A stretch of 64,000 bases of DNA from Anadara kagoshimensis (lineage: Eukaryota > Mollusca > Bivalvia > Arcoida > Arcidae), in the NCBI GenBank assembly GCA_021292105.1, contig CM037870.1, positions 19,375,424-19,439,423 of the forward strand, in the 5' to 3' direction. Position numbers and translations under genes: made by a program. Positions 26,712-58,113 of this stretch are shown here, piece by piece. The notes below the pieces were generated by a model. It made no database searches and had not been told where the DNA came from. It saw nothing but the letters and a program-made list of their open reading frames with translations. Within the stretch, counting starts at the first letter, position 1; each line of letters opens with the position of its first letter.

Positions 26712-27740
26712 TGGTGCTATTTTTGGATTCTGTAAAAGGTTTAAACCATCTTCATTGGTTGTGTTGCCTGCAAGAATTGTAATCGACTTATAGGTTACTA
26801 TTGTTAATTTTTTTATTATTATTAAAAATTGACCTCCACCTGCTAGTGTTGTATTTATTTTGCAGTCATCACATGCTAGTGTGAACTATACAACTATATG
26901 CAGTAAGTGAGGTATTATTAGTTACACAGTCTGTTGGTGACCTAATATGGTTTATACAGGGTCAGTAAATTCTATATCGTACGAGGGGGAAACCTGATAC
27001 CAGATATGGAATTTACTGACCCTGTATAAACCACATTAAGTCACCAACATACTGTGTAACGATTATATCCTACCGATCACCCTGAAGAACCACAGTAGAT
27101 ACCTGTAAACAAACATACACGGATACGGAGACGAGAGAGAAGTTCAGGATGAGACATTGCTGTATGTTTTAGTAACCTATAGCTGTCAAACTAACCCTTT
27201 ATATATCATATTATGTCACTAAAACACTGTGTAACGATTATATTATACCGATTACATCAATAAATCATTTCAAAAACCAATTTGAATGTATCCATACAGC
27301 GACATGTGAATTGTGACAGAGTTAGAAATACCGTCGTTTGGCATTCTGTCTGACAAAATATTGAAAATAATAATGAATTTGACTTACTAGCAACTTCAGT
27401 GAAAGAAATCAATTGCACTTTTATCTTTGGCGGGCGCCATTGACGTTAGTCAGGGGAAATAACTCTCATACTGACTAGATATGAAATGGCCTGACCCGAT
27501 ATGGCTTATATTAGGTCACCACGTGACCAGCATCGTCGAATGAAATTCACAGAAACTAGTGAGAGGTAGGATATACAACAATGTCTTTAACAAAATAAGT
27601 GTTTCTTTTTTCTAATTGCATTATCTTTTGCCAGGAATATGATGCCAGCTACAATTTTTGATTAGGAATCATCACCATTTCCTAGATAATCTCCTAAAAG
27701 TAAATTTATTTGTCAATTACCCTTTTCCTTTGCCTTTGTA
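26712..27740. other. Stretch between mariner and SINE
   Basis: Apart from the inverted repeat at 26921-27060 and fragments of its ends near 27216-27260 and 27480-27530, nothing is recognised. Confidence 0.45.
26921..27060. repeat. Inverted repeat of about 60-bp arms
   Basis: GTTACACAG, GTTGGTGAC and GGTTTATACAGGGTCAGTAA at the left are mirrored at the right, ending CTGTGTAAC at 27060. Diverged pieces of the same ends recur near 27216 and 27500. Confidence 0.85.
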
Positions 27741-28075
27741 ACCACTGCGGTAGCTCAGTTGGTGGAGTGCTTGCTCCATAAGTGGGAGGTTGTCGGTTCG
27801 AACCCTAACCGGGTCCATGACTTGAAAGTGGGTAGTGACTGTTCTGTTGCCAATCACTCATTACGAAATGAAAGTCACGGTTCTTTAAGATGGGAACTTA
27901 AAATAAACGAGGTTCCATGTCATGGTAGGCTTGGCACGATATAGAACCCTGCTGTCCAATGCCATCAGCGTAACCCACAGAAAAATTTCTGCACCTTCGC
28001 CTATAGCTAGTGAAGTCTAGGTATAAGTGAAATATTCTTGACTGGGATGTTAAACACCATTACTCACTCACTACC
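27741..28075 (+). mobile_element. tRNA-derived SINE
   Basis: It is a full-length plus-strand copy: head ACCACTGCGGTAGCTCAGTT, B box GGTTCGAACCC, and a tail ending GTTAAACACCATTACTCACT. CCTTTG flanks both ends as a likely target-site duplication. Confidence 0.85.
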
Positions 28076-30770: not shown

Positions 30771-32321
30771 GTAACATTTTTCATCAGTGGTGTAACTTTT
30801 TCCTTTTGCTACACCATTGACAGTTACACCACTAACGTATTGGATGTAAAACTTGCATTGAGGCGTTATGGACTGTCAGGGACTTACTGGCAAGTGATGT
30901 GTGTAAAGTGAATTCTTTTTCTAATCTTTCTTTGATGGCATGTCTTTCTATTTATACATTAAACATATGAAAATCATGTTACACAATTGAAATACACTAA
31001 TTTGTATTATCCCAACTGTACTTCTCTTTATGACATGTGTTCCATATGTTTAAATTTTGGCTGTTATTAACTTTGTTCAAAACAACAGGAAGTGATGTCA
31101 TTCTAGTCTGTGGAAAACCCAGACCTCTGCAACTGTATTTATAGAAATTGTTATCCGTTACACCATTGACCAACTTTTTTCATACATGGCTATCTCGGGT
31201 CGTAAATTTTATTCACAAAGACTGATTTAAGTTTTTTAACTGAAAATATTTCATACTAAAGCAGGTGTTCAATTTTATTGACATGGTAAATATGCTGGTT
31301 TTTTATCAAAACCGGGTGATTTTTTTTCTAAAATACAATTATCTATGGAAGTTTTATATTGTATAATATAGCTGAGCTACTAAAACATGCAACAAGACTG
31401 GGTTTGGTCTGAAATAACGTATTTACTGTCTACCACACACTACTGACACAAAGGGTTGCATTTTTTTATAATGACCCATATGAATATTCCTAATGAAAGG
31501 TCAAACAGACAGGTCAATGTTGTTTGCCTATACCCCGCTTTTACAACTAAATAAAATTTTAAAGTTGACCATCAAAAGATTTACTTTGGACAAAGATGCC
31601 CAAGTATATGATTGCTGAAGTATGATTTTTGAGCATTACAAGCGGATAAAATAATTTTGCAAACCTTATTTTTTAAGTCAAGGAGTTCAAATGTACATTT
31701 GAAATCTCTAGCAGTACAAAGCGGACACATGGTTTCTGAGAAGTAAAAATATGATGTTTTACTAAGTGCAGTATTTTATATTAATGCTGTTGCACGCCTT
31801 AGTTAAGATTGTTTCACCTGGGCGGTCAGTTTTTGGATGAATGAGGACACCAAAGTGTGAAGAGAAACCACTGACTTCCGCAAGCAAACTCACATTATCT
31901 GCCCATGTGGTATTTGAAACTAGGCTGTGAGAGACATTGTGATCTATACGCACACAAGATCACTGGGTTACCAATGACGTTATGTTTTATGAATAACATT
32001 CCAAATAAAATTCTTCTTGTCTCAATACTTGCATTGCAAACAAATGCCTTCTTAAGTAAGCAATTCTACATTGTCCAAGTGTTGGTTTCAAAGAAAATTA
32101 ACCTTGTGTTTGAAATATTTACTACACTATTTTAATACTTACAATGAACAAATAAAATAAACATTTAACAATAACAGCCAACATTTGAAAATATAACAGA
32201 TATTATATGCAATATATATCTGCAATGAATTACATGTAATCGTAAACGAACAGATTTACGATTCAACCATTTGCACATTATATATGATATGTATTTGAAA
32301 TAAGATTACCATTTAATAATA

Positions 32322-32425
32322 CAAGCTATGATGATAAAACGTGATGACTTCAATTTTTCTATTTTCAACTTACTTTTGTATGTAACAATATATCTGCTTC
32401 TCCTTTATTGTATATTTATAGTACA
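32322..32425 (+). mobile_element. RT coding relic (copy B)
   Basis: This is the duplicate of 1565-1666, with further small deletions. Confidence 0.55.
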
Positions 32426-32490
32426 TTATGGTTCAGGGATATTCCAAGCCTAGGGTTCAAGATTACAAAAAATATGGTATTCTTGGAAAT

Positions 32491-32640
32491 ATAGAGGATC
32501 TTAGACGAGTGGGGTTTAATATGAAATTTATTAAATGAGTTTAATAATTAAATATGCCACGAGCCTTGGCTCTGGCATATTTAATTATTGAACGAGTTTA
32601 ATAAATTTCATATTAAACCCTTGCGAGTCTAAGATTCTAT
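32491..32640. repeat. Long inverted repeat (copy B)
   Basis: This is the duplicate of 1741-1893. Confidence 0.85.
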
Positions 32641-33107
32641 ATATCACATAACTCAAAATACCGAGGCATAATGACATGTACATATTATTTGATGCCATAT
32701 AGAAACAGACGATTTCTATCTAGGTCAGACAAATCACCTCCAAATTAACTGCGCAAGTAAGAATATAGTTCTATATTCTGGTTACAGTAAAAGTAAATTA
32801 ATCACCTAGAAAAAAAGACATAATCAGTATGTAAGTTTAAATCATAATATTTTTTCGAGTGCAACAAAATTATTTTTCAAAGAATCGGAAAGTCTTCAAA
32901 AGTCTAAAAATAAACAACAGACTCACACAGTTTTCATATGACGTCATTAGGCACGACCACTACGTAAATCAGAAACGTGATAACTGATTACGTCACAATC
33001 AACTGATATTACATGGGTACCTGCGTAGTACGAAAAATATTACACCGTTTTATTCCATCAATAAACAGGAGGGTTATGTGATATATATGATATCCTATAC
33101 TTCCATG

Positions 33108-33250
33108 TCCCTTTTATTCTAATTTTTATTTCACACATGGCGGGTATAGGCCAAAAACAGGATGCGCTTACCCTTCTGGAGCACCCCACCTCATTTTCTT
33201 GGTGGAAGTTCGCGTGTTTTGCCTAAATTTTCAAGTTTACAAAGTTTTTA
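33108..33250 (+). mobile_element. RT-element 3' UTR relic (copy B)
   Basis: This is the duplicate of 2370-2505. Confidence 0.6.
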
Positions 33251-33439
33251 CGTTTTTAATGTTTTTTTTTATTAATTTGTTTGTTTTTTGTTTTAATAAT
33301 GAACTGAAAATTGATTGTATGTTTATTTTTGATTAACATATATTATACAATAGATCATTAGCCAATAAAGTGAAGAAAAAACAGCTAACATTTAAAATAT
33401 TTACCACGCTTTACACATTGCATGTATAACTATATAATA

Positions 33440-34190
33440 TACACTAAAGTGTAAGCCGTGTTACAACACAAATGCAGAAACATTCGAAATATTTAACACA
33501 TCATATATGAAGTCAATTGAGTTAAAACATAAAAAAATACAGCTAGCATTCATGATATACAATGGGTATTTTACAACTTTTGAGCAATAGCAATATTACT
33601 CTGATATTTATTCACATAATAAACATTGGATATTCAACACCCACACTACCTTATATATAACAGCAATATTTACAATGGATGGTAAAGCATTTGAAGAAAA
33701 ATAACTACCATTATAAAAATTAGCAGAATCTATACATTTAATCCTTAAACATTTCACAAAAATAAAACAATCATTTGGAACTTAAAAAATGGTGTACAGT
33801 AGATTGTAAACAAATACAGTAACATTCGAAATATTTAACACATCATATATGAAGTCAATGGGGTTAACACAAATTAAATAGTAGCATTCGTGACATTCAG
33901 CACATGATATACAATTGGAAATTTACAACCTAACCAACAATGCAAGAGCACTCATTAGTAATTAGTGGATGTTCAACACTCAAGTGTAAATACACTACCT
34001 CATGTATAATATACAATGAATGGTAAAACATTGGAAGAAACATACAGCTACCATTATGAAAAATGAACATAAACTGTACGTTGTGAATAATAATAAATCA
34101 AACGCATTTTTTCAACAACGTTAACATTTTGAAATAATATAGAAACATAATCTTTACATTTAATCCTTAAACATTTCACAAAAATAAAAC
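33440..34190. repeat. Degenerate tandem duplication (copy B)
   Basis: This is the duplicate of 2690-3480. Confidence 0.6.
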
Positions 34191-35779
34191 CAGCATTTAG
34201 AACTGTAAAAAATGATATATAATAGATATTTAACCATATAGCACAATACATCAACAGCTATGATTTGAATAATTGACACGTGATAAACAATGGCAATGGA
34301 TGTCTAAAACAGTTAGCCGTTTAAATATTTAACATATAATACATAATGAATCTTTTCAGAGTTGACTGCCGATTTTGCCTGGTTTATTACTTGATAACCC
34401 GAGAGAAAAGACAGTCAATTCTTATATTTCAAATCGATATACGAATTTTTTATGTTTCCAAAAAGACATTTACGAATGATGTTATCTAGACATGAAACAG
34501 CCGAACAGTCATTGCCTAGATTTCAAATTTACTTCCAGCATCACTACAAATATTTCACACATGGTATACACTAGATTTAAAGAATTTCACATCAATATAA
34601 CAGATATTGGAAAACATTTACTTGAAAATATAACGTACAATTCACAACATATGTGTAACTATCTTGCAAATCATCTGAAAACTTTAACACATAACACGGA
34701 ATTGGTGGTTACTGTAAATGTATCTCATTTCGCGTGTATTTTTTTCGCTGTATTGAATATTTAGACATTCGCGTAGTCGAATTTTCGCATTTTTAAATAT
34801 GCTCTATAACATTATAAGTACAATATAATATTCGCTTTGTATTAATTTTCGCGCAAATGACAGCAAAATAAGTTTTACTTTCGCATATTAGATTTGCGAT
34901 TTTAGAATGGATTTTTAAACCTACGTTTGTGGTTGATTTTATGAGAAAATTTCTGAAAAACGCATTAAAACGGAAAACGATCACGTGTAAAAGAATTTAT
35001 AACACTTGATTTATTAAGGAACTACTGTTTTACTACTGTGTTACTACCGTAACAAAAAACACGTAATTATACAATAGATAAATCATCTAAAATGTCACTT
35101 TTCTTTAGATTTCTTCGACTCCAATGGACTCGAGTAATTCATATGAGTTTCAATATGTAAGTGCACTTATTCTCTCATAAGTTATATTAGTGTCTATAAG
35201 TTACCAAGTGAGAAGCAATTTATTATTACTAGTATTATTTGGTTCAAATGTATCACATTTTTGTTACGAAAAACGTTCAACGTTCCTTGCAATATTTCTA
35301 AATATTTTTAAATTGAGACTTTCAAAGATTTCAGTCGAAAACTGTCTAATCTTTTAGATCATGAAATGAAATTAAAGGTCATAATCGCAAAATATATATT
35401 GTAAAGATATAACAAACTTATCGATGTTAATGAAAAGGAGATCTAAATCTACAAACGAAATCGTTCTTCGTTAACGCGTTTATATCGTTATCAAGAATAT
35501 TAATGAAATTATGTACATATTACCAATAAAACGCTTGAGGACAAAATTTCGAGAAAAAGCAGCTATTTTGTAAATATAAATGGTTATTATAGTAAATTGA
35601 TTATAAAATAGTAAATGTATATCATATTATGTTGATGAAAGCAGTTACAATTTGATGGAATAATAAAATCCCAAAATTAGTTTTGATTAACATGTCGTAG
35701 GTTTACCTTAAGCAATCTGATTTCTCGAAATTGATAGAAAACAAAATCCCAAGTTTAGTTTTGCAAACCGATTTAATTT

Positions 35780-37371
35780 TCACTGTGTATCAGATAAATC
35801 TGTATTTGAATTTCGCTTTACTTGGTTATGCCGAAAAAGAGAGTCAATTGTAGAAACAGTACTTAGGGTTTTGCTCTGTTTTAATACTTTAAATTTATAT
35901 TTTACTTGTCTTGAAATGAGGAGAGATACGCTAAACAAAAACCCATGAGAACCTGCCAAGAAAATAAATACAATTCGAAGTATATCTTGGTCTGTTGCCT
36001 CTGCAATTATTCCTAACAGCCATGACAAGCCCGAGAATATACAAAATCTGATATATACTGGCCAATAAGAATGGGTTCCGATTTCTGCTGAATGACCTTC
36101 GATGCTTTGTTGAAATGTATATATTTTACATCCTGCAACGAGCAAAACAAAGACATTGACAAGGATTGATATGGAAATAGGACCAATGAAAACCACAATA
36201 TTTACTGGGAAAATAGACGGAAAACAAACGTTAGTAGCATATCCTATTTGATAGCTGTTGGTTATGTCTAAGATTGCAGATGGAATCACAATAATAAAGG
36301 GGATGCCATAACCTATAACGTAGTTATAAATGGGGACATGACTTGCCGACTGCATATTTGGATTTTTGTTAAGCTTCATCATTGCTTTTAAAAGTGTAAT
36401 TGTATATGTGGTCATCCAAGTAAAACAACATAACCAAACATAATGAGATAAAATTCCCACAATGAGACAAACCATGTGATAATCATTGGCGCCAAAACCA
36501 AACATGAAAAACAGATGTGAAAAGAGCATACTTATCATAAAATGTTCGCACACTTTTCCAGCAACATTGTTTGACAAATTTAAACATTTATGAAGTATCA
36601 ATGTAGCAAGGAGGAAAAGGGAGGAAAAGCCCATGGTAACAAAAGACAAAATAATTTGAATGTTTTGCAAGTCACCATTGTCTGTTTCTTTATAGAATCG
36701 CTTCCATACGGTTGTATTTACGGAATATGAAATACTTAAGAGTTTAAAACTGTTGATTTTATCTAGAGCATCACTTTCATTCTGTACAGAGGATGCAATT
36801 ACTTCTAAGAAATCGGGTATTCTTTTTACTTTTGGTTTAACTTCTCTCAGTTCTTCCCGCACTTTGATTTCAAATTGTTTGGCTTTGATGATATATCGTA
36901 TCTGCGAAAGACAATTTGTAAATGTAACACTTGGTGGCCTCTGAACCAAGGTTGGGTCATATTTAAATGTTGTCATACTGTATTTCTGGGGTCTGATTTA
37001 TCTTTCTCAATGTAAGTCCAATTCATACGTTTAAGATCTTGATAAAAAAGTGACAACTCCTGTAGAGATACAGTTTCGTTAATTGAGAAAAAGTAAACAA
37101 GATTTATAATATGACAAATAGATGAATTCGAGCAAGGAAAAGATGTATTTGTATCGTAAATACGCTTATAGTGGCACTGCCCGTTAAAACCTGTGTCTCT
37201 GTGCTTCATAGCTTTGATCAACTTCTCCCAAGGTATGAATAGATTAATAAGTACATTAGCCAAACCCATCACTCTGAACGATATATCGTTAATTAAAGAG
37301 GCATTCGTTAATAGCTTCAAATTTACTTCTAGCTCACTATTTCCAATCACAGCATCAAAACTGCACGACCC
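35780..37371 (-). pseudogene. Somatomedin-B 7TM receptor, copy B, exon 2 (7TM), one-base frameshift
   Basis: This is the duplicate of 5066-6650, behind the same TTGCAG acceptor. A run of five G in copy A (6266-6270) is four G here (36988-36991), which shifts the frame in the linker before TM1: the N-terminal part reads 37371 to about 36990, and the 7TM part is open in the next frame down to the stop at 35780. Where copy A is broken (TM4-TM5), this copy is in frame and reads GYATNVCFPSIF. All seven hydrophobic segments are present. The 7TM region differs from copy A by about 4 replacement and 7 silent changes. A homopolymer slip could be a real mutation or a sequencing error. Confidence 0.8.
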
Positions 37372-37718
37372 CTGCAAGAAAAAAAGAAAAGAAAATACTA
37401 TCTGTTAATGCAATGAATTCTAAGTAATATATTTAAAGGATGTATCCTTCTTTGAAGTCCAAAATATCCCTGAATTTACCTTGATTCTCAACCTAAGTTT
37501 TGGAATGATATGACGATTAAAGAATGATTATAAAAAAACCATATCGAAATATCTATTTTTTCACTAGTGATATGTAAATATAAACACAATTTTATAAAAG
37601 AGTTGTATAGTGGCGCAAATGTAGTTTCCTCTCAGTATTGCAGTATTGATATCAATATCTTTTTTAGAAGTAAAACCCATGTCGAAACTATATTCTGGAT
37701 AATTTTTGTAACAGAGAG

Positions 37719-38042
37719 TTGAGTTGAGTAATGGTGTTTAACGTCTCATGCAAGAATATTTCACTTATATCGAGACGTCGCCAACTGTAAGCGAAGGTGC
37801 AGAAATTTTGCCTGTGTGTTGCGCTGATGGCATTATACAGCAGGGTTCGTGCCAAGCCTACCAAGACACAGGACCTCGTTTATTTTAAGTTCCCATCCGA
37901 GAGAACTGTGACTTTAATTTCGTAATGCGAAGTGTTTGGAGGAAGAACAGTCACTACCGACTTTGGTCAGATCCGGTCGGGGTTCGAACCCACGACCTCC
38001 CACTTATGACGCGAGCACATTATCAACTAAACCACCACAGTT
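37719..38042 (-). mobile_element. tRNA-derived SINE (copy B)
   Basis: This is the duplicate of 7000-7323. Confidence 0.8.
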
Positions 38043-38231
38043 GTTTGTACATTATACTTCTTAACAATATTGTAGCCACGAGCATAAATTTTTTGAGGAT
38101 CTTGTGTTTGTAGTCTTATATATACCTGAGTAACACTAGTATAATTGTGTACATTGCTTTGGCGGAAAAGGGAATAAGGGAAATGTCTTTTATAGAAGAA
38201 TTCATAAACAAAAGATGAACATGTATTTCTT

Positions 38232-38375
38232 GATAAGGAAGCTTACCCTTCCGGAGCACCGGCCTCACTTCCCTGGTGGAAGTTCAAGTGTCTAACCTAA
38301 CTTGTCAGTTCCAAAGTTTTTACTTTGCTTCTGGATTGTGATTCGGAAATGGATTAGTATGTTTGTTTTTGATCA
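38232..38375 (+). mobile_element. RT-element 3' UTR relic (copy B)
   Basis: This is the duplicate of 7513-7655. Confidence 0.65.
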
Positions 38376-39139
38376 TATAATCAAAACTTTAACAAACAGG
38401 TGTAAAGCGCAATAACTCCATCGCTGTCGGAAAAGTCAATGCAATAGAAAACATAAAATTGTAATTAAAATGAAAATTCTTTGAAACTTAAAGTTTAATT
38501 GAAAGTGTTTGCTGTGAAAGTAGACCAAAAATCATAATAGATTATTTTACCAATTGACAAAATCATTTAAGTATATCAGGGCTCTGCGTTTGTAAACCAA
38601 TATGATGTTTAAGGATTATTTATGATTTTTCCTTCTAAAATCTATTTCCCGCTGTTTTATCATTCTCTCATTTTCTGTGGACAAATTTTATAGGTTCGTA
38701 GTTTTATGTACCTATCACTCTTCATTAATGTATTTTGAGAAGGCAAATACTTCAAAGAGAAAACAAGCAATGAATTGTCTATTTTGATCAAAGTTCATAA
38801 TTGTTAAACAACGTAATTTTACGGATTGTGTTAATACAAACTAAAACACTGATAAATAAACAGATGTGAAACATTTAGTTTAGCTTAAACAATATTTATT
38901 TGAAAATCAAAAGGAATAATGTAATGAAACAATTTTACAAATCAGGAACCTGGAACAATACAGGAGTAAAACTCATATTAACCAGTTTTCTGTGCATCTA
39001 TAATACATGTATACCAATTTATAAAACATGGCATTATATACAAACAATAAAGTAAAGTATTCAGTAGAACATTATGAGCATAAAACATTTATATATTTAT
39101 CAATTAAACGTTCATCATTATTACAAAATTAATTTTGCA

Positions 39140-39183
39140 GTACTAGACGACCTTTTCAGAATAGCATTCCTCATCAGTAGTGC
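39140..39183 (-). ncRNA. Degenerate hammerhead (copy B)
   Basis: This is the duplicate of 8422-8465 with the same sequence and the same stem III and stem I defects. Confidence 0.65.
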
Positions 39184-39404
39184 TACGACAAATAAAAAGG
39201 GGAAGACCACATAGAGGAAAACGACCGAAAAGGAACGAAATGCCGCCGGATGAACCAGCTTGAACAAGGCAAAAACAGTCGCAAAAGGCATGGAAAGATA
39301 GCGTTACGGCCTTATGTGCCTTCTGGCGAGGAAAGCATTTTATTATACCTCATTAGAAAAATATGATACTATCTGTAATTTGATTGGATCGTTGGATCAT
39401 GTGA

Positions 39405-39860
39405 TCAGGGTGGAGAACACATCGTGTATCCCTCTGAAAACATCATATCCCACCTCTTCGGAACACACCATGACGTCACAATGATATGACGTAATCGATC
39501 GAAAATCAGTGACGACGTTCTAGCGTTTGCCTCCGATGAGTTCCGATATGAGAAAAAACAATGAATCGGAAAAAGACTGGTGTTTTCGAGCTGTCTTTTT
39601 TTAACATTTTCTTCTTTTCTGTTTTTCTTATTACCATGGTTATCTTTCGGTAAAATAAACGCCCTCGGGAAATTTGACTTGTTGCGGGTGAACAAATGTT
39701 CATATCTCTCACACAAAGGCAATAAATGTATAAAGGCTAAGGCTAAAGTGAGTGCTACGACAAATATTGTTGTAATCCAAGTTTTAAGATGTTTAAATGA
39801 GAAAAATAGAAGAAACAAACTTGATTGTAACAGTTCCACGTGAGGCAATACTTCGAACAA
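39405..39860 (-). other. Possible small membrane-protein reading frame, copy B (151 codons, open)
   Basis: This is the duplicate of 8687-9206 and is open over 151 codons. It has an N-terminal hydrophobic region with one or two candidate membrane segments and a Lys/Arg-rich tail (NHGNKKNRKEENVKKRQ). There is no recognisable domain and no clear splice context. Its openness in only one copy argues against strong constraint. Confidence 0.25.
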
Positions 39861-39920
39861 TAAAATGTAACTAAAGTTCTATGGGAAATTTAAATATTTA
39901 AAATGCTTATTATTTTTATT

Positions 39921-40287
39921 AATCAAAAACAAGCATACTAATCCATGTCCGAATCACAATCCAGAAGCAAAGTAAACACTTTGGATCTGACAAGTTAGGT
40001 TAGACACTTGAACTTCCACCAGGGAAGTGAGGCCGGGTGCTCCGGAAGGGTAAGCACCTCCTGTTTAGCTAGCTACACCAGCCACGTGTGTAATCAAAAT
40101 TGTGTGAAAGGAACATGGAACTATGAGACGTCAAATATGTCCAGGGCAATCTTGGACACAGAAACATCAAACTTATCAACAATACTGTGATGATGGCCAT
40201 AAAACTTTTTGAGGGCCTTGATAAGCCTAGGCTTGCAATATCCCTGAGTCAACAATTTATTTGCAATCAGCCTACTTCGTTGTACAA
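39921..40287 (-). mobile_element. RT C-terminus and 3' UTR relic (copy B)
   Basis: This is the duplicate of 9195-9565. The same-strand hammerhead is at 39183-39140. Confidence 0.65.
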
Positions 40288-40552
40288 AGTTAACAATGTT
40301 GATCTGACAATAAAACGTACTGCCTCTTGGGTCAATGAGTTCTTCGGAAATGCTTAGTCCACTAAAAGAAAAACCAGTCCAGCGGTTGTTATTATTAGTA
40401 CATGTAAACTAAGCAATTAATTTCGTGTGGCGTATTCTGTGACAACGACTTAGAGTTATTGCGCTTTAAACCTGTATTTTGACGGATATTTTGATTTTGA
40501 CTATTGGAAATGTTGTTTTAGTTTATTTGCACGTTCGATAACTGAAACTTTT

Positions 40553-40965
40553 TGTCAATTAATACGCTATAGTATAGCTTGTTCCCATTACGGGGACTTT
40601 GTACAACGAAGGAGGCTGCTCGCAAATAAATGTTGACTCAAGGACTTTGCAAGCCCATGCTTAGCAAGGCCCTCAAAAGGTTTTATGGCCGCCATCACAG
40701 TATTGTTGTTAGGTTTGATGTCTCTGTACCCAGTATTGCCCTGGACATATTTGACGTCCTAAAGGTCAATGTTCCTTTCCCACAATTTTGATTACACACG
40801 TGGCGGGTGTAGCTAGCTAAACAAAATGTGCTTATGCTTCCCGAGCATCCTGCCTCACTTCTCTGGTGGAAGTTCACGTGTCTAACCTAACTTCAGTTCA
40901 GTTCAGTACCAAAGTTTTTACTTTGCTTCTGGATTGTGATTCGGACAGATTAGTCTGTTTGGTTT
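40553..40965 (+). mobile_element. RT C-terminus and 3' UTR relic (copy B)
   Basis: This is the duplicate of 9825-10232, inverted relative to 39921-40287. Confidence 0.65.
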
Positions 40966-41186
40966 AGATTTAACCACTGGACCGGTATCTCTGCTGGTGA
41001 ACCAAACATCAACGAGAATATTATAGACTCAGTAGGCAATACTTTAACATTGTCAGAAATATACTACTGTGTTAATTTTCTGCTTGTTAAAATCTGAAAA
41101 ATTACTAAGGTATATTCCCTAATGAAAATTATTTCGTTACATATATTCGGTTAAATATTTTTTTCTTGGTTTCACAATTTTCGTCC

Positions 41187-41230
41187 GAGAACTGATGAGG
41201 AATTGCATTCCATAAGGGTTGTCTAGCGCT
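41187..41230 (+). ncRNA. Degenerate hammerhead, first of a tandem pair (copy B)
   Basis: This is the duplicate of 10454-10500. It has lost three bases at the 5' side of stem I (GAGAACTGATGAGG instead of GAGAACTACTGATGAGG), and GAAAC is again ATAAG. The second half lies at 41490-41505, 277 bp further. Confidence 0.6.
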
Positions 41231-41489
41231 TTAAAATTAGCACTGGTATAATATGCAATTTTTCAGAATTTTTAAAAAATTAAGAATCAGACAAACTTAA
41301 TAAATAATGTTCACGTTTTTTTTTTTGACAATATAATGTTTTGTGACCCTTTAACAATACTTAAACCACACCACTATATAATATCCATCTATTGTTCTGA
41401 GCAATATTTTTTCGTTCTCCCGAAAATAAAAATGCTGGCTTATCTTATCGTCACCGTTGCTTTAAATACCTAAATTTAATTTTGTTCAC

Positions 41490-41505
41490 AAACGGTCGTC
41501 TAGTG
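41490..41505 (+). ncRNA. Hammerhead 3' half, second of a tandem pair (copy B)
   Basis: This is the duplicate of 10764-10779, with identical AAAC, GGTC, GTC and TAGTG. Confidence 0.5.
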
Positions 41506-41539
41506 ATGCAAAATTACAACCGGTTTTGTAATAAGAACA

Positions 41540-41948
41540 ATCGAAAACAAACATACTAATCCATGTCTTAATCACAATCCAGAAGTAAAACCTTTGGAAC
41601 TGAGAAGTCAGGTTAGACACGTGAACTTTCACCAGGGAAGTGAGACCGGGTGCTCCGGAAGGGTAAGCATCTCCGGTTTAGCTAGCTACAACCGCCACAT
41701 GTGTAATTAAAATTGTGTGAAAGGAACATGGACCTATGGGACGTCAAATATATCCAGGGCAATCCTGGACACGGATACATCAAACATATCAACAATTCTG
41801 TGATGACGGCCATAAAACTTTTTGAGGGCCTTGATAAGCCTAAGCCTGCAATATCCCTGGGTCAACAATTTATTTGCAAGCAGCATGCTTCGTTGTACAA
41901 ATTCCCCGTAGTGGGAACAAGCTCTTCTATAGCGAATTATTGCGAACG
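41540..41948 (-). mobile_element. RT C-terminus and 3' UTR relic (copy B)
   Basis: This is the duplicate of 10812-11220. Confidence 0.65.
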
Positions 41949-42009
41949 ATTGTCAAACACAGCAAAAACATTAAAGCAGGTTTCGTAAATGTTTTGTAGT
42001 TGAACTTAC

Positions 42010-43284
42010 CTTTTGATTTTCATTGCATTTGTCTCCACCTGTTTTTCTCGGTACATTAAAACTGAAGAGTGCTGACATACTATAAGCAGAAACTCTGGGG
42101 GAATCGTTCATAGGAGATGCGCAGGACAAAATAACATCACTGTTATGTACACATGACGGATTTCTTACTAAAACGAATTTGTCACCTGAGTTTATGACGA
42201 AAGCTGGATTCTGGTATCGTAGACAATCTGTGTTATTTTCAGCATCATTTTTTAAGCTCGCCTGTTGAGTATTCCAACATACCCTTGGTCTTGGTGAAAT
42301 TTTGGGTGGAAAGACATCAAACATGCATGATTTACTTTTTAACAGGTTTATTAAGTCATATAAGGTAACATTCAGTAAATCGTATAAGGAAATCTCACAG
42401 AAAAATTTATATTGGAGATCCCATCTCATAAAATTTGTCACGCCATGACAGTTAGCGCAATACTCGTTCTTGTAAGCTATACCATCCTCACTGGTAACTG
42501 GAACACCATATTCTTTTATTTCTTTGTTCTCGCAATTTTTTCTTATTGCTGTTGTCGTCTCATTTCGTGGACAAAAAGAAACAAGCATATATCCCCGGTC
42601 ACTGCTTCCCAAATAATCTGGAATTATGTTCAGAACACATGATGTGTAATTTAATTTTGACACAGATTTAGCTTCTTCGTTGCTCCTCAGACTCAAACCG
42701 TCCTGGTTGTCATGGCAACAATCATTGTAGATTCTGCAATTCAAATCGCAATAACAAACTGGGATGTCTTGATTCTTATTATTGATACATAACCCCTCTT
42801 TAAAACAGTCTTTAACATTTCGGCGTTTTCTGGAAATATTCCCATACATATAATTTGATATCGTTGGTGTTGCAGGTGATTTTCGTTTTGTTTCTTTAGC
42901 ATGGAATTTGGTTTCATTATCGATATTAGTTGTAATTGATATATTTGGCGAATCGTTTTTGTGATATCTTCTCATTGAAGCATGATCATTTCTATTCATT
43001 ATGTTGGAAGCCGCCATAAATGACAAACGCCAAGTCTTGCCTACTTGTGCTCCCTGTTCTATATTTCCTTGCACGCCAGTATCTTTGTCCAAGCTATTGA
43101 GTGCATACTTGTCCTGATTTTGATTAACTTTAGCCGGAGGCGAATAATATTCTGGATATGGTTTAAAAATAATCTCACTTGATGCGTTAAAATAACTCTG
43201 GTTTAGGTATTTATTTGAGATGCTAGTTTCCCCAGAGTTATGATATAAAATTAATAACTTTAAAATTAAGTAATGTAATTCCAT
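42010..43284 (-). CDS. Somatomedin-B 7TM receptor, copy B, exon 1 (ectodomain)
   Basis: This is the duplicate of 11283-12560, with 425 codons (one lost near 42358). It keeps the same signal peptide, RKRR furin-like site, somatomedin B cysteines, YCANCHGV motif and GTAAGT donor. The start at 43284 is the first ATG in frame. By hand alignment it differs from copy A by about 17 amino-acid-changing and 3 silent single-base changes plus a 3-bp indel; all cysteines of the somatomedin B domain are kept. The changes are spread over the ectodomain (for example Q-to-E, N-to-Y and A-to-P). No in-frame stop interrupts the exon, so any inactivation lies in exon 2. Confidence 0.85.
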
Positions 43285-44235
43285 GTTATCTGTCAGCGAT
43301 TTCTGATTTTCAACAATATGTTTCCGGGTGTGTTTTCTGTTAAACTAGCGATGAGTGGTATTTAGTTTTTTCAGTGATGGCTTAAATATCATCAACATCT
43401 ATAGTCATTCGCAGCGATTGGTCAAATCTCTGTTTTACTCTATACGAGGAACAGCCAATCAAAGATTAGAGCCTGAGCCCGTTATTCAATATCTTTACGT
43501 ATATGGAAAAATACGATAAATTGAGATGTATTACTATAATATTTTGAACCTTTGTTATCTTATTAACTTGATGTAAAGTAATATAAGCTTTACACATACA
43601 CACTTATTGTGCAGGAAAATAACTAACATCGCTGACTTTGTTGCTAATCATCTTTATTGCAAACACTGTTTGGCGGACAAACAGAGTAAGAACTACAAAA
43701 TTACGGGAAATAACAAATAAATCATACATAATATCAATATAATAGACAAATTCGACATCAGCTGAAAATGAGTATCAATTAGGCATTTAAAATTATCACA
43801 CATTACATAAATACCCAATATTTAAAACTGCATAAATAACAGCGCAAAAGTAAACATGAAATATACTGACTGAAAATTAAGTACAAATTAAACAGCGAAT
43901 AATTTAAATCAACGAATAAACAAGCGTAAAAGCATATAAAAACATAATAACACATTAAAACATACCCTATACGCACTTGTAATGTTCTATAATTCAAAGT
44001 TTCTGTGTATGAAATCTGTTTGATGAAAATTCCAACTTCAGCGTTTAGTAACTTTTTTTCTAACAAGAAAACCCAGATGAAGAAAACTAAGTCAAGAAGT
44101 TGGAAAACGAAACATCCCGGAAATATGAAAGGAGGCGCATAACACTTGTGAAATACACAACTAAAATTAAAAATAAAAAACAACATCAATATATCAAATG
44201 TTCAGATTATCGCCATACCTGTTTTAATTTTACAA

Positions 44236-44278
44236 CACTAAACAGCCGTTTTGGGATAAAATTTCTTATCTGTAGTAC
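44236..44278 (-). ncRNA. Strongly decayed hammerhead (copy B)
   Basis: This is the duplicate of 13510-13551, with the same CAGATAA core change and an additional base before the stem I 3' strand. Confidence 0.45.
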
Positions 44279-44489
44279 TCAGACCACACTTGTGGAAGTC
44301 CAAACATCGTTAAGATGCCGAAACGAACAAAAACGCATTTCACCAACCCCACCAACTGGCCCAATTCTCCACAAGGAGAGATGGACATAAGTCAAGTCAA
44401 AAAGACAAACATATTTTTAGAATATGAAGGGTCTCATGTCTTCAGTTTTAGTAACTGTCCATTCACTCCATTTCAGATCGATTTGAAAA

Positions 44490-44572
44490 ATCAAAAACAA
44501 AACATACTAATCTATGTCCGAATCACAATCCAGAAGCAAAGTAAAAACTTAGGAACTTACAAGTTAGGTTAT
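44490..44572 (-). mobile_element. RT-element 3' end fragment (copy B)
   Basis: This is the duplicate of 13738-13820; the decayed hammerhead is at 44278-44236. Confidence 0.6.
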
Positions 44573-44869
44573 CCAATGTCTGACTGATTCATAAAATTAT
44601 TCTTGAAATAAGTGTCTGGCCAAGTATCTTTTGTATTTGGCAGTTATATACAGTCCTAGAAGAACCATCTTTTATTATCTGAATTCTAACAATTCAAATA
44701 CATAGCAGCCAATGTCTAAACCACCATCTCAAAACAAAGAAAACAAATGACAAATTTAGTTAAACGCATGAGATTCCACCAGGGAACATAAAAACTTCTT
44801 TGTCAACATGGTATCTTGTGATATCGCTTTTCCTGTTATGGTTATTGGTTCGAAATGTCGGTTTTAATA

Positions 44870-45203
44870 AAAAAAAAAAACAAACAAATATACTTATCCA
44901 TGTTCGTCACAGTTCAGAAGCAAAGTAAAAACTTTGGAACTGACAAGTTAAGTTAAACATGTAAACTTCCACCAGGGAAGTGGGGCCGGGCACTCCGGAA
45001 AGGTAAGCACCTCCTGTTTAGCTAGCTACACGTGTATAATCAAAATTGTGTTAGAGGAACATGGAACTATGGACGTCAATTATATCCAGGACAATCCTGG
45101 ATACAGAGACCATCAAACTTATTAACAATACTGTGATGATGGCCATAAAACTTTTTAGGGTCTTGACAAGTCCTGGCTCACAAATTTATTTGCAAGCAGT
45201 CGA
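44870..45203 (-). mobile_element. RT C-terminus and 3' UTR relic (copy B, longer)
   Basis: This is the fuller version of 14086-14300, with the whole 3' UTR. Confidence 0.65.
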
Positions 45204-45448
45204 AAACTAAGGTTGATATTCTATTTACTTATATGTAGAATTATCTATAATTATCAGAATACAATTTAAAATGTGTCTCGGATTTTATTACCTCTACGTT
45301 TGAATAATATGTTACTTTCTTTCAAAACGTACTTACTCCCTCATGCAAAGTATTTCCTTAGCTTAATTTAGTAAAATATATTTTGGTCCTTTTGGGTAGC
45401 TTTTCAACATCTTCAACAATGCTTTTTGGTTTCATAATTTTGGTTCAA

Positions 45449-45492
45449 GCACTACTGATGAGGAATTGTATTCCGAAACGATCGTCTAGTGC
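45449..45492 (+). ncRNA. Type I hammerhead ribozyme, intact (copy B)
   Basis: This 44-nt motif has every part of a minimal type I hammerhead. The stem I strands GCACTA and TAGTGC pair perfectly. The core CTGATGA is present. Stem II is GGAAT, loop TGT, ATTCC. GAA plus the stem III strand AC, a GATC loop and GT follow. The cleavage triplet is GTC, so cutting is expected between 45486 and 45487. Stem III has only two base pairs, the minimal form known from Penelope-like elements and animal retrozymes. The sequence after it (TGCTGTAAATATAAAAC, GGTATAATAT) is shared with the other hammerhead loci. Self-cleavage is inferred from structure, not shown. Confidence 0.88.
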
Positions 45493-45886
45493 TGTAAATA
45501 TAAAACTGGTATAATATGTTATTAGTCTTGTGAGTAGTTCATTTAGAACCAAACATCCATTTAAAATGTATTTATTTCCTTAGAGATAAATATAAAATGT
45601 CCAAACATGCTTTTCTATTGACATCTTCGTAATTCAGTTCTAACGTGTTAATTTCAAGATGCCCTTTCAATTCAAAGGGTTTTACTTGCAATATTGAATT
45701 TGTACTTAAACTTTTTTTTGTGAAACGTGTCTCTTTGTTCAAGAAATTTGAAGCTTGTTTGACTGCATCAGTAACTCTTGTTTTTATATATTCTTTATGT
45801 GTTTCTTTTATTTTTGAGCTACACGAAAATTATACTCATAATTAATGAATATGTTTTAATTTTGCAGCATTAGACAAACATTATGA

Positions 45887-45998
45887 GTTGAGTTAAATAA
45901 TGGTGTTTAACGTCCCAGTCAAGAATATTTCACGTGCCAAGCCCACCATGATACGAGACCTCGTTTATTTTAAGTTCCCATCCGAAAAAACCGTGACT
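45887..45998 (-). mobile_element. Truncated SINE (copy B)
   Basis: It is the copy B remnant of 14978-15320. An internal deletion removes the middle, and a second one removes the tRNA head, the neighbouring half of the hammerhead and the start of the next element. Confidence 0.75.
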
Positions 45999-45999
45999 A

Positions 46000-46222
46000 T
46001 TATATACAGGTTTAAGTAATATGAATAAAGAGCTATTGGTATACAAATCTGTCTCTAAAGGCCATCCAATGGAACCAGTAAAAGTGGCCTTTATGGGCAG
46101 GTGACTTTTATATACTGGTTTAAGTTATATGAATAAAGAGCAATTGGGATACAATTCTGTCGGCCTTTATCAAAAGGTGGTTCTTATATAGAGGCGGCTT
46201 TTAAGGTAAATTGGACTGTATG
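46000..46222 (+). mobile_element. TACAGTC-ended miniature element, 5' truncated (copy B)
   Basis: It is the copy B counterpart of 15393-15683. The left terminal repeat was removed by the deletion that also took the SINE head. Confidence 0.7.
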
Positions 46223-46598
46223 CTAAAATGAGAAGAATGGAAGGATCGAAAATGTATTTTATAAATTCCAAATACAGCAATGCTTTGAACAATTAAGTTT
46301 AGCTTAGGTTTTTTGGTATTTTGAGGCAAATAATTTTATAAACATTATTTATCTGCCAATACAATGCATTGCCGCGATATTGGGTAAACGATATCCTGAG
46401 GTTTGCTTAGTCCACGAGCAAAGATATAGTAATAATTACAATATCTGTCGACTTTAACATTTTCAGTATAATTTTGATAATTTATGCAATCTTTGATGTA
46501 TATCTTTGATTTCAAAAATTGAACGTGAATTTCCAGCAGATTTGTTATGGTTTAGGTTCCCATGGTAACCGATATTTGTATGAAAGTAGTTTTGAATG

Positions 46599-46729
46599 TT
46601 TACCCTTCCGAAGCACCCGGCCTCACTTCCCTGGTGGAAGTTTATGCGTCTAACCTGACTTGTCAGTTCCAAAGTTTTTACTTTGCTTCTGGATTGTGAT
46701 TCGGACATGGATAAGTATGTTTGTTTTTT
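46599..46729 (+). mobile_element. RT-element 3' UTR relic (copy B)
   Basis: This is the duplicate of 16058-16195, better preserved. Confidence 0.6.
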
Positions 46730-47212
46730 ATTAGTACACACTATATGTGATTTTATTTTATAATATTTTATAAAAGCTAAAAAGTTGAAACAATGATCCG
46801 ACTTTAAAGTAAAAATATTATACATTTAGCCTACATACTAGTATATAGCGAGTAAAATGATTTTAGCATTTTACTGAAAAAATATGAATTTGCTGCTTTA
46901 TTCTGATGCAATCTTTACACTTAATTTTAATTTGCTCCCGGATGCAGTTCTTTGTCGAACAGAATAAACATTTTAAAATTTATTTTAAAAAATTATGCAA
47001 TTTATTAACATTTACTTTGTAAAACACTATGCCATGGTAACAGATATTTGACTTTTACATGCGAATTAGTGACGCGTGATATATATAAAAGTAAAGGGTT
47101 GGTATTTACCACTTTTAGTCAAAATGGTGAACAATATGCCTTAAAATTTAGCCTATAAAAATAAAGTGCCGGTTTTGTAAGACGTCAAACAGTGTACTTG
47201 TTTTAGCTCAGT

Positions 47213-47698
47213 TTATACGCTATTGTAAGCTTTGTTCCCATTACAGCAGTTTTATACAACGGAGAGAGCTGCTAACAAAGTAATTGTTCGCTCAGGAATA
47301 TTGCAAGCCAAGGTTTCATGACCGCTCAGGAATATTGCAAGCCAAGGTTTCATGGCCGCTCAGGAATATTGCAAGCCAAGGTTTCATGACCGCTCAGGAA
47401 TATTGCAAGCCAAGGTCTCATGACCGCTCAGGAATATTGCAAGCCAAGGTTTCATGACCGCCATCGCAGTATTGTTGAAAAGTACCATGTCTTTGTTATT
47501 AATATTACCCTGAAAATATTTGACGTCTAATAGTTGTATCTCAATTTTGATTTTACATGTGGCATGTGTTACAAGCTATACAGGAGAGGCTTACTCTTCG
47601 GGTGTATTCGGTCTCATTTTCTTGGTGGAATGTCACGCATTTAACTTAATTTGTCAGTTTTTAGATTGTGATAAGGATATGGACCGGTATATTTTTGT
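47213..47698 (+). mobile_element. RT relic with internal 34-bp tandem array (copy B)
   Basis: This is the duplicate of 16695-17180, also with five 34-bp units (47290-47459), so the array predates the duplication. Confidence 0.65.
47290..47459 (+). repeat. 34-bp tandem repeat, five units (copy B)
   Basis: It has the same units as 16773-16942, with private point changes in units two and four. Confidence 0.9.
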
Positions 47699-48243
47699 GC
47701 AAGATCGTTGTGAAACACTTAATTGTGTATCTCCTTACTTGTATTTTGGAGAGTTTTACATGAAATGCAAGGTTTTGTATAATAAAATCTCCTTTTATTA
47801 ATTTAATTTTTTGACATTTAAATCTTTATCACTTTGAGATATTACATTCCTCTTTATATAATTGGCAAAACTTTTCTCTACAAAAAAACTTATATAAATA
47901 ATATCAGCTATTTGATTTCGTGTTCTCAAAAATATTTCATTTGTATTGATACAATTGTTGTTCAATTTGATTTATATATATTGACTTAATACATGTATAA
48001 TACATAACTTTCGATGTAAAAAGCATTCGTGTAGGCATTAAATGAAGCGCTTAAAATGAATTAATGAAGCATTTTGTTTTTTTGCACCTAAAAGTCTTTA
48101 AAGAAACAACAATAGAATGTTGATTAGAAAAGCAAAACATAATAATACTTAGTAAGAGCTCTAAGTAAACAATCAATAGTTTGGGTGTGTTTTGTCATTA
48201 TTCAAACATTTTGTTTGATTAAGTAGCGATAAAGATGATACTA

Positions 48244-50984: not shown

Positions 50985-51040
50985 GAGTGTGTGTGTGTGG
51001 CCTCGTTTCAAGAACATTACATTTACAAAAATTACCATAT

Positions 51041-51090
51041 GCACTACTGATGAGGAATTGTATTCCGAAACAGTCGTCTAAGACCAGTGT
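51041..51090 (+). ncRNA. Hammerhead ribozyme, intact core, altered stem I
   Basis: The motif has GCACTA, CTGATGA, stem II GGAAT/ATTCC with a TGT loop, GAAAC, loop AGTC and GTC (cleavage 51078/51079). The 3' strand of stem I carries about five extra bases (TAAGACCAGTG instead of TAGTGC), so stem I is weakened. It lies 13 bp outside the right edge of duplication copy B and about 440 bp downstream of a same-strand RT relic (50247-50598). Confidence 0.75.
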
Positions 51091-51167
51091 TGTAATATTA
51101 AAAACGGTATAATGTGTAAAACAAATGTTATAAAACCAGAAAAATATTTCATCAATCAGGATATGAA

Positions 51168-52254: not shown

Positions 52255-55012
52255 AACAAGAGGCCCATGGGCCTGATACGCTCACCTGATAACTAATGGC
52301 TAGCTGATAGATTTAAAGAACACATAAATACTAAACCCCCAAGACTTTTTTCTTTACATCATGATAACCAGTGTATCAATACCTACAACATTCTAATATA
52401 CATGCCTATACAAAAAATTTATAGTATTCGAGATAATTAACCATTTTGGTATTGTTTTGCATCTGTGACCTTGACCTTTGAACCCATGACCTTTTTCTAT
52501 ACATCAAAATGATTGTTGTATCGATACCTACAACATTCTAATATACATGCCTATACAAAAAGTTTATAGTTTTCGAGATAATTAAACATTTCCGTATTGT
52601 TTCGCATATGTGACCTTGACCTTTAAACCCATGACCTTTTTCTATACATCAAAATGATCGTTGTATCAATACCTACAACATTCTAATATAAATGCCTATA
52701 CAAAAAGTTTATAGTTTTCGAGATAATTAACCATTTCGGTATTGTTTCGCATCTGTGACCTTGACCTTTGAACTCATGACCTTTTTTTATACATCAAAAT
52801 GATCGTTGTATCAATACCTACAACATTCTAATATATATGCCTATACAAAAAGTTTATAGTTTTTGAGATAATTAACCATTTTGGTATTGTTTCACATCTG
52901 TGACCTTGACCTTTGAACCCATGACCTTTTTCTATACATCAAAATGATCGTTGTATCAATACCTACAACATTCTAATATACATGCCTATACAAAAAGTTT
53001 ATAGTTTTTTAGATAATTAACCATTTCAGTATTGTTTCACATCTATGACCTTGACCTTTGAACCCATGCCCTTTTTCTATACAGCGAAATGATTGTTGTG
53101 TCCATACCTACAACATTCTAATATACATGCCTATACAAAAAGTTTATAGTTTTCGAGATAATTAACCATTTCGGTATTGTTTCGCATCTGTGACCTTGAC
53201 CTTTGAACCCATGACCTTTTTCTATACATCAAAATGATCGTTGTATCAATACCTACAACATTCTAATATACATGCCTATACAAAAAGTTTATAGTTTTTT
53301 AGATAATTAACCATTTCAGTATTGTTTCACATCTGTGACCTTGACCTTTGAACCCATGCCCTTTTTCTATACAGCGAAATGATTGTTGTGTCCATACCTA
53401 CAACATTCTAATATACATGCCTATACAAAATGTTTATACATGTAGTTTTCGAGATAATTAACCATTTCGGTATTGTTTCGCATCTGTGACCTTGACCTTT
53501 GAACCCATGACCTTTTTCTATACATCAAAATGATCGTTGTATCAATACCTACAACATTCTAATATACATGCCTATACAAAAAGTTTATAGTTTTTTAGAT
53601 AATTAACCATTTCAGTATTGTTTCACATCTGTGACCTTGACCTTTGAACCCATGCCCTTTTTCTATACATCGAAATGATTGTTGTGTCCATACCTACAAC
53701 ATTCTAATATACATGCCTATACAAAATGTTTATAGTTTTCGAGATAATTAACCATTTCGGTATTGTTTCGCATCTGTGACCTTGACCTTTGAACCCATGA
53801 CCTTTTTCTAGACATCAAAATGATCGTTGTATCGATACCTACAACATTCTAATATACATGCCTATACAAAATGTTTATAGCTTTCGAGATAATTAACCAT
53901 TTCGGTATTGTTTTGCATCTGTGACCTTGACCTTTGAACCCATGACCTTTTTCTATACATCAAAATGATCGTTGTATCAATACCTACAACATTCTAATGT
54001 ACATGCCTATACAAAAAGTTTATAGTTTTCAAGAAATTTAACCATTTCAGTATTGTTTCACATCCGTGACCTTGACCTTTGAACCTATGACCTTTTTCTA
54101 TACAACAAAATGATCATTGTATCAATACCTACAACATTCTAATATACATGCCTATACAAAAAGTTTATAGTTTTCGAGATAATTAACCATTTAGGTATTG
54201 TTTCACATCTGTGACCTTGACCTTTGAACACATGACCTTTTTCTATACATCAGAATGATCGTTGTATCAATACCTACAACATTCTAATATACATGCCTAT
54301 GCAAAATGTTTATAGTTTTCGAGATAATTAACCATTTTGGTATTGTTTCGCATCTGTGACCTTGACCTTTGAACCCATGACCTTTTTCTATACATCAAAA
54401 TGATCGTTGTATAGATATCTACAACATTCTAATATACATGCCTATACAAAAGTTTATAGTTTTCGAGATAATAATTATAATCAGAGGTAAAAAAAATTAG
54501 GTCACGACCTTCACAATCGACCTTGACCTCATTTTGAAGATACTAACAAGAAGATGTCAAAACTGAAAACCCCATGTCATTATCTGGTCAAATAGTCAAG
54601 TTATAACAATTTGAAGCTATTTTACGATTTTTTCAAAATTAAACGCAAAAACGCGTAACCTATTTTTTATCCGAATTTCACAAAATGAACAAACTATAGG
54701 CTTAAGACCCTAGAGAAGCCAAATATCACATCAGAATTTTTCTCCAATTAGTACTTTCCGAGAAGAAGATTTTTTAAGATTTTTGCACCCCTAGGTCACC
54801 TTGACCTAGTTATGGTAGCCATAGCAACGCCACGAACAAATCTGAATTGCACCGGCCCATATATACTTCTGACAAAGTTTCATCAAAAACTGTCCAGTAG
54901 TTTCAGAGGAGAAGTCGAAAATAGGTGTTAACGACGCACACACGCACACACGCACATACACACGCTGCGCTATGCCATAAGCTCACATGACCTTCGGTCA
55001 GGTGAGCTAAAA
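52255..55012 (-). mobile_element. Mollusc-type interspersed element with internal tandem array
   Basis: The block begins with AACAAGAGGCCCATGGGCC, GCTCACCTGA and ends with CCTTCGGTCAGGTGAGCTAA, so CTCACCTGA and TCAGGTGAG mirror each other at the two ends. I recognise this pairing of ends as widespread in mollusc genomes. Inside are the 145-bp array, a section with GACCTTGACC, and a section ending in a CA-rich tract. A reversed relative of the section 54590-54920 lies at 20490-20800. No transposase is seen. Confidence 0.65.
52345..54475. repeat. 145-bp tandem array, about fifteen units
   Basis: The anchor ACCTACAACATTCTAATAT recurs at 52381, 52526, 52671, 52816, 52961, 53106, 53251, 53396, 53547, 53692, 53837, 53982, 54127, 54272 and (as ATCTACAAC) 54417. 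Each unit contains GTGACCTTGACCTTTGAACC and ATGACCTTTTTCTATAC. Units at 53106, 53396 and 53692 share the variant TTGTGTCCATACC, so a two-unit block of about 290 bp was amplified. Confidence 0.95.
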
Positions 55013-57670: not shown

Positions 57671-58113
57671 ATGCAAAACGTTAAATAACAAAGTTAGGTT
57701 TTACAATCTTATAAATCATGTTTGAAGCCAAACATCAAAATGGAAGGGGGAAAAACAAACTCGATAAGCAATATTTTTGTATCGTCAGATATATACTACT
57801 TTCTAAATGGGTACTTAAGTCGAATAATGAATGTGGTCCCCGTCAGGCTGGCCAATCAAATTCATGTATTTGTCCAGATCGGTACATTTTTAGTGCACAA
57901 GGTTGCCATTTACGGATACGTTTTTATCGTTAAGTGTTTGATTTTGGTAAATTTTCATACAAATGTCCGAATTTTTAGTACTTTTAATTTAAAAAAAACG
58001 TCAAAATTGGACAAATATGTCTATTTTGACCTTTTCATTTCATCCGTCTCTTTATGCGTTTTTTATGAAACAAATCCGTCGAATTGGTAAGCCTGTTCTG
58101 TAATCCTCCTTAC

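Follow-up and report, generated by a model that had tools for sequence, protein, structure and literature searches.

Why does a structurally complete hammerhead ribozyme persist in the Anadara kagoshimensis genome among relatives that have largely decayed? The ribozyme lies in a stretch of 64,000 nucleotides, referred to throughout as the window, which corresponds to C14:19375424-19439423 in a 1.115-Gb assembly of 36 contigs that was searched as a whole. A preliminary description of the locus proposed that such intactness reflects either recent activity of the surrounding element or continued selection. We find that the ribozyme is neither free-standing nor specially preserved, and that it forms the 3′ portion of one solitary retrozyme copy, which we call copy B.

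The hammerhead of copy B spans 45448-45493 on the plus strand and can be read directly in the sequence as a complete type I ribozyme. Its letters run, in order, AGCACTA, CTGATGA, GGAAT, TGT, ATTCC, GAA, AC, GATC, GT, C and TAGTGCT. Stem I forms all seven of its seven pairs (AGCACTA/TAGTGCT, 45448-45454 with 45487-45493) and is followed by CTGATGA (45455-45461), a stem II of 5 bp (GGAAT/ATTCC) with the loop TGT, and GAA. Stem III consists of 2 bp, A-T at 45478/45485 and C-G at 45479/45484, capped by the tetraloop GATC at 45480-45483. C17 falls at 45486, which places the predicted cut between 45486 and 45487. Copy B carries every type I hallmark, namely CUGANGA, GAA, A15.1-U16.1, H17, three helices and an open end on helix I. 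Two features summarize the structure.

45448-45493, plus strand: type I hammerhead ribozyme of copy B, from the sequence, the RF00163 alignment and a structural scan
45478-45485, plus strand: ACGATCGT, a perfect 8-nt palindrome in copy B that could pair between two copies as an 8-bp helix III

The preliminary description had claimed that all conserved core bases are present, and CTGATGA, GAA, the A-T pair and GTC are indeed read in the sequence. Its five of five pairs in stem II and its two-pair stem III with a four-base loop agree with our reading, and its stem I, given as six of six, is paired as described with one pair more. The term minimal suits copy B, which lacks an outer stem I helix, and does not suit a copy from the tandem array described below, in which folding of one array copy places an extra helix past an internal loop in stem I.

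Sequences with this core are abundant in the genome. The core pattern CTGATGA..GAAAC..GTC has 9,398 genome matches (4,737 + 4,661), compared with 199 (77 + 122) when the pattern is reversed. Among the 100 places listed, CTGATGAGGAATTGTATTCCGAAACGGCCGTC is the most frequent core, and the GGCC loop of this majority core recurs in 5,072 cores across the genome. Five units stand in tandem at 339 bp at C1:310542-311928, and other pairs lie 325-378 bp apart. Two array monomers have a GC content of 34%, and stop-free stretches reach at most 54 codons in one monomer and 50 in the window copy. The 339-bp array monomer aligns by blastn to 45239-45523 and to the window's other hammerhead relics, which bears out the earlier suggestion that the intact type I hammerhead belongs to a mobile element. 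The family shows the arrangement that defines metazoan retrozymes, in which units of 150-450 bp are repeated in tandem and each bears a type I hammerhead, copy B itself being solitary. We assign the hammerhead of copy B to a non-autonomous retrozyme of the non-LTR type found in metazoans, with a probability of about 0.88.

Animal non-LTR retrozymes are described as repeats of 150-450 bp with a GC content below 45-50% and a type I hammerhead; those of mussel reach ~5,000 copies, with circles as intermediates and Penelope-like elements (PLEs) or LINEs as suspected partners (PMC7229834). The Anadara family resembles the retrozymes of Mytilus galloprovincialis, Acropora millepora and Ambystoma mexicanum in its unit of a few hundred base pairs, tandem or solitary, and in its low GC content (PMC7229834). 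It further shares with them the type I topology, thousands of copies, the lack of a long ORF, the presence of PLEs in the genome, and a 2-bp stem III with a tetraloop, a form described as similar to invertebrate hammerheads (PMC7229834). The family is likened to the retrozymes of PMC7229834 by description and not by sequence. Exact family motif patterns found no relatives in the viral and genome contig collections searched; a general hammerhead motif occurred in 22 viral contigs, with blast alignments to the repeat of only 11-16 nt (E 0.48 or worse). All transposon matches among the 20 ORFs scanned in the window are mariner-like, and no ORF offers a coding partner for the retrozyme.

Hammerheads of type I also accompany PLEs, and copy B could accordingly be read as the hammerhead of such an element, left as a solo pseudo-LTR, rather than of a retrozyme. 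PLE hammerheads with a very short stem III are known (PMC7761336, PMC6155905), and the genome has elements with reverse transcriptase (RT) and GIY-YIG domains. GIY-YIG matches occur at no fewer than 50 places, a count that comes from the 150 of 248 candidates scored, and three loci drawn from these (L111-L113) all have ORFs matching RT and GIY-YIG, the RT match being below the Pfam cut-off in two of their four PLE ORFs. L111 (C1:19414500-19420500) is an inverted PLE pair with an RT and GIY-YIG ORF in both copies, and L113 (C15:54984500-54992000) is an inverted pair with such an ORF in one copy, the other being shorter. At both of these loci, two of the three, a minimal hammerhead (CTGAAGA..GAAA, a four-base palindrome and TA) lies near the 3′ end, behind each of the two inverted copies; at L112 no such minimal hammerhead was found. 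The cut in L111 and L113 would fall approximately 64-79 nt before the end of the shared sequence, which runs out in AT repeats. Copy B resembles these PLE hammerheads in its type I topology, its short stem III and its position tens of nucleotides before the 3′ end of the element. It differs from them in sequence, since the L111 and L113 ribozymes are built on a CTGAAGA core, form no stem III pairing past A-U and are linked to RT and GIY-YIG ORFs, and do not carry CTGATGAGGAAT..GAAACGGCCGTC. Moreover, copy B matches a tandem 339-bp unit with a longest stop-free stretch of 54 codons, and no match to RT or GIY-YIG domains occurs in the 20 ORFs scanned in the window. A blast comparison of the unit with L112 and L113 yielded nothing above chance level, and the match at L111 is a separate retrozyme insertion. 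With three PLE loci viewed in their surroundings, a PLE origin of the copy B hammerhead is very unlikely. For a retrozyme, coexistence with PLEs agrees with published reports; the two have no hammerhead sequence in common, and PLEs are not proven to be the movers of the family.

The window holds seven clear insertions of the retrozyme family, five of which are present in both arms of a duplication. They are given below together with the hammerhead of copy A.

45239-45523, plus strand: retrozyme copy B, solitary and 5′-truncated, ~0.8 unit; 45305-45523 well conserved, 45239-45304 weakly (blastn of the 339-bp monomer, panel of genomic copies)
14387-14629, plus strand: retrozyme copy A, the same insertion as B (panel of genomic copies)
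14553-14598, plus strand: hammerhead of copy A, with G-U at the inner stem II pair; RF00163 22.6 bits (duplication match, A/B comparison)
10235-10532, plus strand: older copy of nearly one full unit with a decayed ribozyme; duplicate at 40968-41262 (blastn of the 339-bp monomer, copy panel)
51007-51124, plus strand: copy whose core is intact and whose stem I has 6 additional nt in its 3′ strand; RF00163 12.7 bits
8383-8494, minus strand: copy with a stem III mismatch; duplicate at 39101-39212
13489-13619, minus strand: decayed retrozyme copy; duplicate at 44215-44346
15308-15416, minus strand: relic ending inside the ribozyme, adjoining the tRNA-like repeat at 15249-15312
10750-10812, plus strand: 3′ remnant of a retrozyme; duplicate at 41476-41537

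Weaker matches outside this count of seven lie at 9025-9189 (minus strand), at 15683-15890 with 46241-46427 (both minus strand), and at 57755-57808. The remaining copies in the window are damaged, in keeping with the earlier statement that most relics here are decayed.

Several other repeats and coding remnants share the window. A broken mariner-like transposase occupies 25497-26574 (minus strand), with Mos1 HTH and weak DDE matches in separate ORFs, and a CBM_14 match also occurs among the window ORFs. A SINE-like repeat of ~340 bp is present at 6997-7336, 14976-15330, 27740-28070 and 37716-38055; its tRNA-like head at 15249-15312 (minus strand) scores 25.8 bits with the Rfam tRNA model, below the cut-off, and one copy adjoins and cuts short a hammerhead relic. 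A dispersed repeat of ~370 bp (9194-9559, 21159-21534, 39920-40290, 40596-40970 and others) has many copies on both strands, some of which adjoin retrozyme relics. Tandem repeats are found at 52338-54472 (145 bp, ~14.7 copies) and at 61500-63998, where a 26-bp array with strong strand skew runs up to the window end.

The history of copy B can be followed through a direct duplication of ~20 kb in which 1-20122 matches 30803-51026. Within it, 1-14146 matches 30803-44934 at 97%, and further blocks reach 20122 and 51026. Substitutions between the arms are uneven by block (1.5-4.6%), and each arm has a 7tm_2 (secretin-type) receptor ORF and a cysteine-rich ORF without a Pfam match. One arm may be a haplotype that the assembly retained. 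Copies A and B go back to a single insertion, which the tandem duplication doubled. In the block that bears the hammerhead, A and B differ by 40 substitutions over 875 aligned positions (4.6%), and the hammerhead itself differs at 2 of 46 positions, 45474 and 45482 in B coordinates; these are the stem II closing pair and the loop base that the preliminary description had singled out. We set the polarity of the changes by the genome majority (ATTCC, GGCC). The derived change in copy A is C to T at the inner stem II pair (45474 in B), the derived change in copy B is C to T in the loop (45482), and a G to A change in the loop is common to both. A guess from the decayed window copies, in which loop T was ancestral and both changes were derived in A, gave way to the polarity set by the genome majority, which makes loop C ancestral. 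Each lineage has thus taken one substitution in 46 nt since the duplication, and the rest of the block predicts 1.03. The pace of change in copy B since the duplication is the one expected under neutrality, and because one change per lineage is what the block predicts, its intactness needs no selection.

These comparisons bear on a second alternative, that copy B is a domesticated ribozyme held under selection, for example to cut a host transcript. In its favor, all core bases and pairs are intact in copy B and damaged in the other window copies, and both duplication arms have kept a hammerhead. Against this, the single substitution in 46 nt matches the 1.03 expected, and copy A weakened over the same period, to an RF00163 score of 22.6 bits. 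The 32-nt core of copy B is also not peculiar to this locus, as it occurs 26 times in the genome, including the window's own, among 78 cores with a GATC loop. None of the six stop-free ORFs of at least 75 aa in 43806-47798 has a Pfam match over the cut-off.

Across 84 sampled copies, stems and flanks change at similar rates. Substitutions per site amount to 6-8% in the stems, 7-8% in the two flanks, 13.5% in the tetraloop, 11% on the 5′ side of the stem I internal loop and 5% in the stem II loop; the core rate of 1.9% is low largely because of how the copies were picked. With an alignment that allows indels and the internal loop counted with the flanks, the ratio of stems to flanks is 0.85 (95% 0.70-1.04, column permutation p 0.21). 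Constraint on the stems, which a fixed-offset count had indicated by stems changing at least twofold less than flanks, was rejected when the effect vanished in the indel-allowing alignment. Double changes at stem pairs are likewise not in excess, with 3 seen over 12 stem pairs and ~4.6 expected (86 cores, counted without indels). Domestication of copy B is extremely unlikely on these grounds, and the proposal of continued selection has no support either, A and B having one substitution each against 1.03 expected and stems decaying as fast as flanks. Recent activity, the other proposal, holds for the retrozyme family, whose five-unit array has modules 98-100% alike, and does not hold for the copy B insertion, which predates the duplication. 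Over 190 nt, copy B shares at most ~93% identity with any of the sampled copies.

Chance does not account for the hammerhead in copy B. A structural scan of both strands of the window, which demands the core and at least 4, 3 and 2 pairs in stems I, II and III, finds exactly two sites, 14553-14598 and 45448-45493. In 300 dinucleotide-preserving shuffles the mean is 0.0067 sites, and the best has 12 pairs, compared with 15 in copy B by the same count, which takes stem III as 3 pairs by allowing a 2-nt loop (2 by manual count). The looser motif CTGATGA..GAAAC..GTC has 3 matches in the window with 0.01 expected. RF00163 aligns to copy B over its full length with 27.0 bits (E 6.2e-05 in a 181-nt search). 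A chance resemblance without ribozyme ancestry, which could appeal to this score lying under the curated cut-off, is negligible in view of the 0.0067 matches per shuffle, the full-length alignment and the thousands of homologous copies with the same core, the repeat family by itself refuting it.

The preliminary description had expected a high covariance-model score and counted one below threshold against the ribozyme; by that rule the result is formally negative, as 27.0 bits falls short of the RF00163 gathering score of 34 bits. This value is a curated cut-off and not a structural feature. Whole-window Rfam scans list no hammerhead, either at the gathering level or by E-value, and ten complete loci scanned with E values up to 0.5 likewise gave none. 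All four copies tested singly score below 34, at 27.0 bits for copy B, 22.6 for copy A, 12.7 for the copy at 51007-51124 and 28.1 for a majority-core copy. Because even the majority-core copy reaches only 28.1 bits, the cut-off is a poor test for this family, and it does not tell intact from decayed members.

The short stem III and palindromic loop raise the question of whether these ribozymes act in pairs. In newt hammerheads, pairing of two copies through helix III has been proposed, and the Anadara family resembles the amphibian satellite and retrozyme hammerheads that cleave as dimers (newt, axolotl) in its weak stem III and palindromic tetraloop (PMC7229834, PMC6155905). Copy B has two stem III pairs, whereas the axolotl Amex1 type has a single one (PMC7229834, PMC6155905). 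RNA folding favors an alternative fold for the single copy, with the best structure at -13.7 and the hammerhead at -7.8 kcal/mol. For the dimer, the copy B energies are -30.4 for the hammerhead and -32.9 for the best fold. An 8-bp helix III between two copies is thus energetically allowed by the palindromic loop in these models, and dimer action is possible. Genome-wide, the loop is GGCC in 5,072 copies, GACC in 932, GGTC in 670 and GATC in 78. The palindrome-keeping double change to GATC is not in excess, as independence predicts ~123 (932 x 670 / 5,072), and selection for dimers was rejected on this count. Amphibian-style dimer use is possible for the Anadara family and unsupported by the sequence evolution of the loop. 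Published animal retrozyme circles are highly self-paired, a common though non-defining trait that two array monomers here do not share, their circular folds showing no gain in stability over shuffled sequences (z 0.15 and -1.4).

How copies such as B arise can be approached through their ends. Our sample comprises 84 loci, all on C1, that cover 98 of the 100 places listed. Alignment to a circular template yields 109 pieces, 87 of them with a hammerhead core; two loci yielded none. Units are numbered from the C of CTGATGA, so that the cut follows position 32. In 78 of the 87 core-bearing copies the 3′ end falls between unit positions 60 and 78, or 28-46 nt beyond the cut, a stretch of 19 out of ~307 possible end positions. 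The other nine end at 18, 50, 52 (three), 53 (two), 81 and 97. Of the coreless pieces, 10 of 22 end at 60-78 and 12 elsewhere. Among the 78 copies with the preferred 3′ end, 60 are at most one unit long and have 5′ starts scattered from 70 to 323. The 18 longer than one unit include seven whose starts cluster at 284-305, which may be a preferred full-length form or solo copies beside full units; L066-L068, three of these 18, appear to be duplicates of a single insertion.

Target-primed reverse transcription, as established for LINEs, characteristically leaves copies that have one fixed 3′ end and variable 5′ ends. The pattern of copy ends here suggests target-primed insertion from uncut or circular RNA, the cut linear monomer not having been the template because these copies span the cleavage site. 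A long target-site duplication is rare, with one of 22 bp (L036) among 49 copies, and short repeats of at least 7 nt flank 14 of the 49 compared with 10% in re-paired controls, a weak excess. In metazoan retrozymes, target-site duplications, when present, exceed 4 bp (PMC7229834). The preferred 3′ end and the 5′ truncation are measured here; the main text of PMC7229834 makes no mention of truncation, and the sections of it consulted here contain no statement on fixed ends.

Units within one insertion offer a further view of the template. Among 11 insertions with at least two ribozyme modules, they stand out as alike only in the L024 array (0-2% apart). In the ten others, units are 1.4 to 29% apart; those of L088 differ by 1.4% and are equally close to other copies, and those of L041 and L082 diverge as much as unrelated copies do, which may reflect nested insertions. 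A single circle as template is not proven, as unit likeness stands out only in L024.

A model of the insertion cycle can be drawn from these ends and from published relatives. Multimeric read-through RNA would be cut by type I hammerheads and the monomer closed into a circle, both steps as in those relatives. An RT from another retroelement, again by analogy with them, would copy the uncut or circular RNA into a new site, starting at a fixed point ~38 nt past the cut and often stopping early, and copy B would be a 5′-truncated insertion of such copying. Since it has only one hammerhead, copy B could at most cut a through-running transcript and cannot release a monomer. In its full form, the proposal is that copy ends record animal retrozyme insertion in which RT starts at one fixed site ~38 nt past the cut, on RNA uncut or re-closed at the hammerhead, is primed by the target, often stops early and sometimes continues beyond one unit, using the machinery of PLEs in the same genome, two loci of which have their own hammerhead at a comparable distance (~64-79 nt) from the 3′ end. 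We put this forward tentatively, at somewhat worse than even odds.

The mobilizing enzyme and the RNA form of animal retrozymes are suspected and, in the available text of PMC7229834 and PMC7761336, undemonstrated. With about nine thousand cores, a near-identical array and PLEs in one genome, retrozyme mobilization becomes testable from copy ends. Copy B itself matters little, and serves as an example that an intact genomic ribozyme need not be under selection.
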